From assembly GCF_900142525.1 (NCBI RefSeq), contig NZ_FRBD01000007.1, positions 1 to 64,000 of the forward strand: a stretch of DNA of 64,000 bases, read 5' to 3'. The DNA comes from Xylanibacter ruminicola (lineage in GTDB: Bacteria; Bacteroidota; Bacteroidia; Bacteroidales; Bacteroidaceae). Of this stretch, positions 41,251 to 56,095 are shown piece after piece. Below the pieces are notes generated by a model. It was not told where the DNA came from and searched no databases. It saw only the letters and a program-made list of their open reading frames with translations. The first letter of the stretch is position 1, and every line of letters starts with the position of its first letter. The translations under genes were made by a program, and so were the position numbers.

Positions 41251-44200
41251 ATGAAAAAAACACTGAAGTGGTTGGGTATTGCGGCCATAACGCCCATACT
41301 GCTTATTCTTATACTGGCCGTACTTCTGTATTTACCACCCGTGCAAAACTGGGCGGTAAAGAAGGTAGCATCTATCGCCTCAGAAAAAACAGGCATGCAG
41401 ATTACCATAGAGCATGTGAACCTGGAATTTCCGTTAGACCTTGGCATCGAGGGCTTCCGTGCATTACATCCGCGCTCGGCTTCGCCGCTTGGCTCGTCCA
41501 AGAACGACTCTATCCCCCAACTGCAGGATACCATTGCCGATGTGCGGAAAATGGTGTGCGATGTGCAGCTGCTGCCACTACTTGAAAAACGTGTGGTTAT
41601 CGACGAACTGTCGATGACTCAGGCTAAGATTAACACCAATGGTTTTATCGGCGACCTGCGCGTAAAAGGTGAGCTGCAGGAACTATGGCTTTCGTCGCGC
41701 GGCATCGACCTCGATAAGGAAACCGTAGAGGTGAACGGCGCCCGACTCTCAGAAGCCCGACTGGATATCGCACTCAGCGATACAGCGGCTGTAGACACCA
41801 CGGAATCAACAGCTAAATGGATAGTGAATGCTGATTCGGTGAGTATCCTGAAGAGCAATCTGATGGTTCATCTGCCAGGCGATACGCTGAATGCTCAGGC
41901 CTATATGGGTAGGGCAGTGGCTCGCACGGTGCTGGCCGACCTGGGCCATAATATATATAAGGTGGAAAGTCTGGACTGGACCGACGGCCGACTGAAATAC
42001 GACAACCGCTTCGAACCCGAGACCGACGGACTGGACTACAACCATCTGTCGCTGACCGATATCAACCTGCGCGTAGATTCGATAGAATACATCGACCCTA
42101 ACACATCGCTTATCATCAGGAGCCTGCAGGCCAAGGAGAAGAGCGGACTGCAAATCAGTAATCTGATGGCTAAGATTACGATGGATGATAAGCGCCTGAT
42201 GATACCCACACTGAAGCTGAAAACCCCTGATACTGACATAGAAACCGAACTGGCCATGGACTTCAATACCTTCGACGAACTGAATCCAGGAGCCATGCGT
42301 TTCCGTATGAATGCACAGATAGGTAAGCAAGACCTGATGCGCTTTATGGGCGACATGCCGCAGGCCTTCGTTAAAAACTATCCTAACCACCCCATCAGTA
42401 TCAAAGGCTCTATCAACGGCAACATGCAGCACATGGCCTTTACAGGGCTCGACATACATCTGCCAACGGCATTCCGAATGACTGCCACCGGTACGGCCGA
42501 CAACGTGACCGATATGGCCCGCATGCAGGCAGATATCAAAATGAGTGCCCGTGCAGAGAACATCAACTTTACACTAGGGCTGGCCGACCCCGCACTGATG
42601 CGTAACTACCGCATACCTAACGGATTGCAGGTAGACGGAACGCTGAAGGCCAACGGCACGCGCTACCAAACCAACCTGATAGCTCGCGAGGGTGCTGGAA
42701 CGGTTAAGTTTAAAGGCGGCGCCAGCATTCCGCTCAATGCTAAGGGCGATCTGGTAACCGAGGCTATGACTTACGATGCCGATATCAGCATCAACCGCCT
42801 GAACCTGCATCACTTTATGCCTCGCGACTCTATCTACACCTTTACTGCCGATGTGAAGGCTAAGGGTTATGGTACCGACTTCCTGTCGAACAAGAGCCGA
42901 CTGACTGCCGACGCTAAAGTGCATCAGCTGCAATACGGTAGGCAGAACCTGAAGAACATCACAGCCCAGGCTACTCTGGCTAACGGCCATGCACTGGCAT
43001 CGATAGTGGGCCACAACGAGCTGTTGAACGGTACCATTGGTGTAGATGCCCTGCTGAACACCAAGAAACTCATGGCCACCATCAGTGCCGACCTGGATAA
43101 GGCCGACCTGTACCGTATGCGACTGGTAGAAAAGCCATTGGCTATCGGACTGTGCGGTTCGGTTGATGTGGTGTCGGACATGAAACTCACGCATAAGGTA
43201 ACCGGACTGGTAGATGAGATTTACATCACCGGACAGAAGAGTACACTGCGTCCTGACTTTATCGGATTGCATATCAATACCAATCTCGACACCGTTATCT
43301 TCCGCATGCAGAGCGGCGACTTCATTGTGAAACTGGATGCCAGCGGAAACTACGAGCGCTTGTTGAACAAGCTGACTATTCTGGGCGATTCGGTGATGGC
43401 ACAGATGGACAAGCGTATTATCGACCAGTCTGCCATCAAGCGTCTGCTGCCCGAGATGAAGGTACATATCGAGAGTAAGCGCGATAACCCGATAGCCAAC
43501 CTGATGCAGGTGCTCGACATACAGTTCAAGGAGATGATGCTCGATGTGGCTACATCGCCCCAAACGGGTATCAATGGTAAGAGCTATCTCTACTCGCTGA
43601 TTTACGATAGTACGCGCATAGACACCATCAGGCTGAACCTGACGCAGAAGGGCGACCGACTGACATATCAGGGACAGGTGCGTAATAACAAGCGCAATCC
43701 GCAGTTTGTATTCAATGCCTTGTTCGATGGTACCATCCATCAGCACGGTGCACTGGCAGGCTTGCGATATTATGATGATAAAGACCGACTGGGAGTACGC
43801 TTAGGTGCTACTGCCGAAATGGAAAGCGATGGCATACGCTTCAGGCTGCTGCCCGAGCGCCCCACCATCGGATATAAGGTGTTCAACCTGAACAAGGATA
43901 ACTATCTGTTTATGGGCCGTAACAAGCGCTTACAGGCCAAGGTTGACCTGATAGCCGACGATAAGACCGGTATCAAACTGTATACCGAGAATCAGGATTC
44001 TACCATGCTGCAGGATATCACCATGAGTATCAACAGGCTGGATCTCGGTGAGTTGACATCTGTAATTCCATATCTGCCCCGCATTACCGGAAAGCTGAAC
44101 GGCGACTACCATATACTGCAGGACCGCAACGAGAATATATCAGTAGCAGCGGATATGTCGGTACATCAGATGACCTACGAGGGTTCGCCCATAGGTAACA

Positions 44201-54481: not shown

Positions 54482-54688
54482 ATGAGAGAAGCAAGATACT
54501 ATATAGTGGCAGGACATGGGTTCTGCGTGGAGGCTGAGGCGGAATGCTTTCAGTTGATGGAGAACTATGAGGTGTTTAGGGTTGCAAGTGCGCCTGAACA
54601 GCTGTTTAGCCTGACTATTGGTCAGGGCGAACGGCCTGAGTATTCGGAGGAGTTTAGGCAGCGAGCAGTGGGTTACCGACCGTCTTGA
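54482..54688 (+). pseudogene. N-terminal fragment, possibly of an HprK/PEPCK-like protein
   Basis: The first 58 residues (MREARYYIVAGHGFCVEAEA ... ENYEVFRVASAPEQLFSLTI) look like the N-terminus of a conserved cytoplasmic protein. They recall the start of HPr-kinase/PEP-carboxykinase-like proteins that sit beside PqqD and ABC-exporter genes in Bacteroidota peptide loci, but this match is from memory and uncertain. The frame then runs out of phase into the ABC-transporter sequence at about 54655 and stops at 54688. Confidence 0.45.
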
Positions 54689-55652
54689 CTCCATGCAGCA
54701 GCGACTGCGTAGCAATGTGATGCGTCGACTGAAGTTCACCGTAGTGATGCGCCTGATAATGGGATGCGTGTTCGGCCTTGGCTATATGTTGGCCTTTGTG
54801 TGGGGCGGACTGCAGTTGCGCTCGGGCGCCATCACGTTTGGTGTGATGACATCGTTCCTGCAGCTGGTGGGTATGATTCAGCACCCCATACTGCAGCTGC
54901 TTAACATGGTGCCAACGGTGATACATACCACTGCCAGCATCGACAGGCTGGAGGAGCTAACAGCCTCTTCCACCGTTCAGCCGCATTTCTTGGACAAGCC
55001 AAGCGGCAAAGCCGAGCGGCAATGCGGCTGCACTGATAGGCGGATTTGCAATTCGCAAAGCGTTACCTTCACCGACGTCAGCTTCCGCTACGCCTCGGGC
55101 GACCGCGAGATTCTGTCGCACTTCAGTCATGAGTTCAAGTCTGGCACCAAGACTGCCATCATGGGCGAGACAGGCATTGGAAAGACAACGCTGTTCCGAC
55201 TCATCCTGGGCTTTATCACGCCAACAGAAGGACGTGTGCAGGTGGGCAGCGAGCCCTGCTTTGTGCCGCAGGGCAACACGCTGATGAGCGGCACCATACG
55301 CTATAACCTGCAACTGGCTAAGCCCGATGCTACCGACGAGGAGATGCTGAAGGCGCTGCACACGGCATGTGCCGACTTTGTGCTGGAGCTTCCCGATGGT
55401 ATCGACACCGAACTGGGCGAGCGTGGCGGCGGACTGAGTGAGGGGCAGGCACAACGCATAGCCATAGCGCGTGGACTGCTACATCCGGGCGATATCATGC
55501 TGCTGGACGAGATAAGCAGCTCGCTCGATGAGCCTACAGAGCGAGAACTCTACGGTCGTCTTTTTGCTGCTCATCCCAATACCACTATGATTTTTATCAC
55601 GCATCGTCCAACGGTTAGTGAGCTTTGTGATGAGATCATCACTCTTTCGTAA
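54618..55652 (+). pseudogene. Truncated ABC transporter (exporter type)
   Basis: Similarity to ABC exporters begins near 54660 (EQWVTDRLDSMQQRLRSN). Only about the last two transmembrane helices remain, followed by a complete nucleotide-binding domain: Walker A GETGIGKTTLFRL, signature LSEGQAQRIAIARG, Walker B DIMLLDEISSSLDEP and FITHRP. The first four helices are missing. A 32-base repeat is inserted in the linker between the membrane part and the ATPase part. The upstream ATG at 54618 belongs to the preceding fragment's sequence, so a functional transporter is unlikely. Confidence 0.7.
54987..55018 (+). repeat. 32-base double-hairpin element inside the ABC-transporter frame
   Basis: One base different from the groES-groEL copy (ACAAG for ACGAG). 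It encodes LDKPSGKAER in frame and is flanked by CCGCATT and AATGCGG, an outer inverted repeat. Confidence 0.9.
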
Positions 55653-56063: not shown

Positions 56064-56095
56064 TTCTTGGACGAGCCAAGCGGCAAAGCCGAGCG
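56064..56095 (+). repeat. 32-base double-hairpin element between groES and groEL
   Basis: Reference copy of the element, in the untranslated gap: TTGG/CCAA and CGGC/GCCG stems between TTCTTGG and GCCGAGCG. It is followed at 56129-56157 by ATCCGTA units and preceded by CCTACGGA. Confidence 0.9.

Follow-up and report, generated by a model that had tools for sequence, protein, structure and literature searches.

Coding palindromes are known from Wolbachia, and to our knowledge protein-coding palindromes have been found mainly there and in Rickettsia, where the way in which they move has remained unexplained. Insertion sequences of the IS200/IS605 type end in hairpins, insert 3' of a short fixed sequence without target-site duplication (TSD), and may be excised precisely. 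According to the accessible parts of two reports, the Rickettsia palindromic elements (Ogata 2000/2002) measure 105-146 bp (about 150 bp), form long stem-loops with terminal inverted repeats, make in-frame fusions and encode a conserved peptide (PMC2229807, PMC10969869). REPs carry GTAG or CGTC, as given in the available portion of the source (PMC3733652). For TnpA_Y1 of subclass 2.4, a partly accessible study places REPs in frame within its own gene, and it also couples IS200/IS605 movement to the lagging strand (PMC6006769). Mitochondrial double-hairpin elements and GC clusters are described, in what the two sources at hand disclose, as short GC-rich mobile hairpins of unknown mechanism, with one case in a coding gene (PMC4478555; PMC2800124).

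The window examined here is a stretch of 64,000 nucleotides from Xylanibacter ruminicola. An initial annotation had pointed to a 32-mer shared by tamB and by the gap between two genes which we take to be groES and groEL, and the same match was obtained on recomputation: the minus strand of 41473-41504 reads TTCTTGGACGAGCCAAGCGGCGAAGCCGAGCG and is identical in 31 of 32 bases to the plus strand of 56064-56095, the groES-groEL gap 32-mer having one difference. A third match was found at 54987-55018, and none arose in 100 shuffles. The annotation had counted all 32 bases as the element; the repeat is indeed a real insertion, but the mobile unit comprises 30 bp, CTTNG-NNNNN-CNAAG-CGNC-NNN-GNCG-AGCG, and the outer two bases, 41503-41504, belong to the target TT and not to the element (Table 1). 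The in-frame addition of a peptide to TamB, which it had also proposed, is borne out: ten codons, RSASPLGSSK only, are added as residues 75-84, the flanking P and N being host residues, and the element is read antisense (tamB on the plus strand, element on the minus strand). The ABC-transporter copy lies in a variable linker between the membrane and ATPase domains.

Table 1. Copies of the repeat in the window, with their target and host genes
Feature	Position	Strand	Remarks
30-bp element inside tamB	41473..41502	-	In-frame RSASPLGSSK, TamB codons 75-84; clean 30-bp gap in 19/20 homologues
Target TT, directly 5' of element	41503..41504	-	Also in empty sites
tamB host gene, 1576 aa	41251..45981	+	ORF; Pfam PF04357, E 3.2e-35
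Second 30-bp copy	54989..55018	+	In frame, ABC-transporter ORF; inside larger inverted repeat CAGCCGCATTT / GCAATGCGGCTG
ABC transporter host ORF	54618..55652	+	ABC_tran residues 167-299; element ~123-133
Third 30-bp copy	56066..56095	+	groES-groEL gap; inside inverted repeat CCTACGGATT...AATCCGTAGG

Filled and empty versions of the tamB site delimit the unit. A 1.3-kb query matched 348 of 398 same-genus genomes; 29 loci were fetched besides the window's own, and 9 of them were excluded since the site was not covered in one match. Exactly 30 columns are absent in 19 of the 20 homologues kept, the remaining one (L115), from a close relative, having the peptide with the same codons, which brings the filled sites to the window and L115. 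On the element strand the filled site reads GAATCGTT, then CTTGGACGAGCCAAGCGGCGAAGCCGAGCG, then CTTATG, and the empty site reads GAATCATT directly followed by TTTATG; the unit is therefore 30 bp long, the leading TT is the target and no TSD is formed. At least four further homologous comparisons show the same clean junction without TSD, including M15-peptidase genes versus L051/L094/L170, L071 versus L157, L170 versus L182 (same genome, 92.8% over 207 bp) and L192 versus L187 (a 31-bp variant). At several sites, 7/8-bp tandem repeats come back into phase and host hairpins become perfect once the 30 bp are taken away. An AAG target-site duplication was considered and dropped, the 30-bp boundary being set by the tandem-repeat phase and the empty sites, and a conserved TamB motif was ruled out by the 19 of 20 homologues without the peptide. 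The groES-groEL gap and the ABC linker were too variable in relatives to yield clean empty sites among the 20 close genomes searched. In one genome, similar M15-peptidase genes (L144, L156, L165, L168, L171, L182), some at contig ends, carry the element at the same place; the filled gene itself has therefore been duplicated.

The history of the tamB site is not resolved. In a tree of the 4.2 kb flanking it, with the element excluded, L115, L116 and L117 form a group with support 1.0 and the window lies outside. L116 and L117 are empty while the window and L115 are filled, which leaves two empty lineages nested within filled ones. Judging from these flanks, either one gain and one exact loss, or two gains at the same base, or an exchange between lineages may have occurred. 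The element is identical over 30 bp in the window and L115, and their flanks are 83% identical; the combination seems to lean towards recurrent insertion or exchange, without settling the matter. An identical element in both is odd under simple inheritance and is counted against the explanation preferred below.

A search of the host genome (3.96 Mb, 63 contigs) with up to three mismatches placed the 32-mer at 40 positions, with none for the reversed-pattern control. The structure-relaxed pattern of the 30-bp form matched exactly at 46 places (reversed control 0) and, with up to three mismatches, at 56, at which tolerance the reversed control gave 2 matches. With hairpin length left free, 69 matches were obtained, longer-hairpin forms included and two places counted twice. 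Independent insertions are fewer than 46, because some places sit in duplicated host genes, such as C14:445 and C19:144, whose flanks are identical save for the insert. Among 206 distinct-flank matches, 173 are exactly 30 bp and all are 29-40 bp, under a search pattern that allowed 25-45 bp. Together with the empty TamB sites, these further copies support the earlier interpretation of a mobile protein-coding repeat.

At a tolerance of one mismatch, 28 of the 60 genomes examined from the same genus, the own one among them, carry the element, as against none of 40 genomes from other families. The exact 30-bp pattern was absent from 148 other genomes drawn from the order, just one of which is from the same family. 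At least two genera outside carry it. Among the matches listed, the named carriers include Prevotella communis E15-14, Xylanibacter ruminicola Ga6B6 and D31d, X. brevis, Marinilabilia rubra and Anaerophaga thermohalophila, the last two being, as we assume, Marinilabiliaceae, as well as a MAG labelled Candidatus Atribacteria (L008), for which mis-binning is not excluded; the named element-bearing records among them are mostly Prevotella/Xylanibacter or Prevotellaceae. A phage origin was rejected, the viral collection yielding only 13 stretches, and the 32-mer had no plasmid match.

Structurally, the element places a CTT..AAG hairpin directly next to a CG..CG hairpin and ends in AGCG; this arrangement is kept although stem and loop bases vary. 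Among 69 distinct 30-mers, from a set deduplicated by 20-base flanks, positions 4 and 12 of hairpin 1, both of which the pattern left free, can always pair: G-C in 29, C-G in 20, T-A in 18, A-T in 1 and G-T in 1. At the unconstrained pair of hairpin 2, 61 have G-C, 4 have A-T, 1 has G-T and 3 have no pairing. The double-hairpin fold is predicted, under DNA parameters, for the top strand of 63 and the bottom strand of 64 of the 69. The bases CTT..AAGCG..CGAGCG were fixed by the search patterns, and allowing three mismatches added just ten more places. The features of a classical MITE are lacking, as CTT at one end and AGCG at the other do not form an inverted repeat and no TSD appears in the filled/empty pairs. 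Upstream of unrelated genes, elements were also seen in tandem, at a distance of 40 bp that leaves 10 bases between them, as were longer relatives (CTTGCTTGGGCAAGCGTCTCCTTCGTCGCCGAGCG) (L198, L199, L110).

A sequence that forms hairpins and is often intergenic might also be a conserved functional motif, such as a terminator, a regulatory signal or a protein motif, which does not move at all. Against this stand its presence and absence at homologous sites, its occurrence in both orientations, several reading phases and unrelated proteins, and the RNA folds of the two copies tested, which on both strands were no better than shuffles (z -0.86 to +0.72); we consider such a motif highly improbable.

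Insertion is tied to a short target. TT stands 5' of all 44 own-genome copies recovered with a search pattern lacking TT, and the base before it is A in 27, G in 11, T in 5 and C in 1, mostly giving RTT. Overall, TT was found at 180 of 184 loci, most of which were retrieved with TT in the pattern. Among 178 sites with full flanks, a 29-31 bp element and the required TT, period-7 tandem repeats occur at 30 (0.3% of random TT sites) and junction-spanning inverted repeats at 25 (1.9% of random TT sites), several of the latter coming from the same repeat family and thus not being independent. The enrichment is weaker when 53 intergenic sites are compared with non-ORF controls, both for tandem repeats (3/53 vs 21/3000, p = 0.008) and for inverted repeats (7/53 vs 147/3000, p = 0.016). 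These preferences would suit copying by replication or repair without a dedicated enzyme, either through template switching at hairpins or through an RNA-mediated route as proposed for mitochondrial GC clusters, and the failure to find a linked enzyme or a strand bias in the own genome (see below) points the same way. Exact boundaries and a TT in 44 of 44 otherwise differing contexts argue instead for a specific endonuclease, and enzyme-free copying is regarded as rather unlikely.

Several host repeats recur. The element frequently lies in variable tandem repeats whose units of 7 to 8 bp each contain one TT (AAAGTTC, GAGTTAA, ACATTAA; L018, L025, L061, L074, L094, L099). A conserved hairpin with the element between CCTGAGCAACAAAAAGTT and GCTCAGGATTTTGCCATG was observed in several genomes (L016, L020, L052, L062, L079, L085, L097, L184), the copy in the CCTGAGCAACAAAAAGTT/GCTCAGGATTTTGCCATG hairpin of L097 being diverged. 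The element is also often located in the loop of a different palindrome family, CCCCT..AAGTT..AGGGG..TCTGAAC and its relatives (L012, L045, L055, L059, L084, L106, L113, L158, L177, L183). In addition, contig G000:C55 has two direct copies of the element, one at each end of an ORF that we presume to be M13-peptidase-like.

Many unrelated proteins carry the element in frame because 30 bp correspond to ten codons that are usually stop-free in six frames. No stop interrupts any of the six frames in 45 of the 69 distinct 30-mers and in 146 of 179 copies, which is only moderately above the 51% given by a null of observed stems with random loops. ORFs of at least 200 aa contain 68 of 184 copies of 29-31 bp: 67 of the 173 with 30 bp versus 1 of the 11 with 29 or 31 bp (Fisher p = 0.057), the lone exception lying 15 codons from the C-terminus. 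The length filter in long ORFs is thus borderline, and single cases need care, as ORF calling relied on a simple greedy rule that may have let through spurious ORFs of 200 aa or more. Of ten proteins scanned with Pfam, nine have a named host family: TamB, ABC transporter, Peptidase M15, YaaA, AlkZ-like, FecR, DUF3987, TonB plug and pyridine nucleotide-disulphide oxidoreductase.

All six classes of phase and orientation are used, giving different peptides, and their use is non-uniform (chi-square test on 67 copies, p = 1.6e-5; with the orthologous L115 left out, p = 1.2e-5). The phase encoding the hydrophilic peptide XLDEPSGKAER is favoured, with 28 observed against 12.3 expected, whereas that encoding LGRAKRQSRA was observed 3 times against 11.0 expected. 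This bias fits translation with selection on the peptide; an insertion preference is not excluded. In yeast mitochondria, byp elements undergo translational bypassing, and hairpins inside conserved proteins raise the possibility that the ribosome likewise skips the insert without translating it. Bypassing would permit the 29- and 31-bp copies that are rare in long ORFs, and it is further opposed by a length that is a multiple of three, by the usual freedom from stops and by the dependence of phase use on the encoded peptide; there is very little to recommend it.

The search for a mobilising enzyme centred on Y1 transposases. A single PF01797 (Y1) gene is present in the own genome. The 4.5 kb or so around it contain no element, and the inverted repeats at its borders, as at those of its homologues, are unrelated ones that often follow the pattern GGGACAGGT/ACCTGTCCC. 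This transposase was rejected as the mobiliser, the element being absent nearby and the border repeats different, and in a test for an IS200/IS605 derivative the element ends were unmatched by the borders of the own genome's Y1 gene. A 265-aa Y1 family (L164, L201, L202, L203, L204, L207) often has GGGACAGGT/ACCTGTCCC-type borders, apparently as its own repeat family. Recurrent neighbours (M15 peptidase, VirE/DUF3987, HU-like) were also set aside as mobilisers, since they look like hosts or multi-copy cargo. PF04986 (Y2, IS91/Helitron-like) had no match in the own genome, but the control genomes gave none either. The orientation relative to replication revealed no lagging-strand bias in the own genome (20/46). 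In P. communis, the origin of which was not fixed (no DnaA-like motif was found in the first 20 kb), 5 to 8 of 9 copies agree, according to whether replichores are assigned by local skew or from a single terminus, and over all loci 85 of 154 are positive (p = 0.23; Wilcoxon 0.069), a weak trend.

Across genomes, Y1 genes and the element are associated in part. Any Y1 gene was found in 10 of 11 genomes with at least four elements versus 25 of 49 others (p = 0.019). In the same two groups, 8 of 11 versus 9 of 49 genomes had the L164 Y1 family or relics of it (p = 0.0009). When at least one element is taken as the cut-off, no association is seen for any Y1 (19/28 vs 16/32, p = 0.20), and that for the L164 family or relics is 13/28 versus 4/32 (p = 0.005). 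Kinship was uncontrolled, and thresholds and family membership were chosen after the counts had been seen. Among 60 fetched Y1 loci (24 same-genus, some relics), an element-type double hairpin was found in the flanks of L244 and the relic L210 only. At L244 (1310-1431), one and a half elements lie immediately upstream of an intact Y1 gene of 170 aa, and the genome concerned has 13 elements; the relic L210 has a longer-form double hairpin nearby.

These data bear on the proposal that the element serves as the REP sequence of a RAYT/TnpA_REP, one candidate being subclass 2.6 of Bacteroidetes, whose atypical structures lack GTAG. It is small, palindromic, dispersed and present in Bacteroidetes; as far as the accessible text of the source goes, atypical structures flank the subclass 2.6 genes and recur at other places in the genome (PMC6006769). 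The excess of Y1 genes in element-rich genomes and the arrangement at L244 would be expected of such a pair. The general REPtron layout, on the other hand, was not found at the 60 Y1 loci beyond L244 and L210, the L164 family has other border repeats, the GTAG/GTGG foot is absent, and the association vanishes at the lower cut-off for any Y1, besides being post hoc and uncorrected for kinship. A REP identity is accordingly judged unlikely, though that the element is an atypical structure of subclass 2.6 cannot be excluded.

The repeat is a real, mobile, frame-neutral double-hairpin element, a protein-coding palindromic repeat. Leaving the enzyme aside, we hold with considerable confidence, on the strength of the sequence comparisons, that it represents a mobile, structure-defined, TSD-free, non-autonomous miniature element of 30 nt. 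It inserts 3' of TT (mostly RTT) without TSD. By inference, it would move as a folded single strand, with a trans-acting enzyme cutting at TT^C and G^N and then rejoining the ends, and its persistence as selfish DNA, nearly harmless wherever inserted, is most likely. An unlinked HUH-type nuclease (Y1, IS200/REP-like) is rated the likeliest mobiliser because this is the best-known class that combines an exact unit, a fixed site, no duplication and a kept structure; the assignment is inferred and remains tentative, and that no enzyme could be tied to the element counts against it. In its fullest form, the explanation holds that a 30-nt single-strand double hairpin is the smallest known bacterial mobile element, precisely excised and re-inserted after TT by an unidentified trans-acting enzyme, and steadily adding short hydrophilic peptides to proteins across one genus; this is possible, but we would stop short of asserting it.

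No published description of the element was found, and four of its sequence stretches did not occur in the literature searched, preprints and most subscription papers being outside the scope of both searches. The present protein-coding palindrome is an independent and much smaller case, from a rumen genus that is abundant. Its empty sites are clean, its target is fixed, its structure covaries and many species are available for comparison, which opens two questions to testing: by what means such elements move, and how frequently tiny insertions join working proteins. For annotators, stretches of the PSGKAER, SQAAKPS or RSASPLGSS type in Prevotella proteins can be inserts and not conserved motifs.

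Compared with known systems, the element shares with REP / RAYT a size of 20-40 bp, a hairpin and a dispersed distribution, and, so far as the source could be consulted, some REPs also lie inside genes without breaking the frame (subclass 2.4). It differs in having no GTAG/CGTC foot (TT lies 5' of hairpin 1 in 44/44, and the 3' AGCG is set by the search pattern), in its two hairpins per unit, in the general REPtron layout not being found and in being common inside coding sequence. Like IS200/IS605, it inserts after a fixed short sequence without TSD; unlike them, it has no carried or linked transposase, its hairpins abut with no interior, and the lagging-strand bias is absent in the own genome. 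The nearest structural parallel is offered by the mitochondrial GC clusters, which the available sections depict as short GC-rich units of constrained structure; they differ in being organellar, in having AG/ACT direct repeats taken as TSDs and in lacking a fixed ten-codon length (PMC4478555). Finally, the initial annotation had likened the repeat to the Rickettsia palindromic elements. Membership of that group does not hold, as the element here has 30 bp, two separate hairpins, a TSD-free TT^ site, a Bacteroidales host and, in place of one conserved peptide, several phases in both orientations. The likeness in behaviour does hold, both being palindromic, both being intergenic as well as in frame in unrelated proteins, and both being thought selfish.
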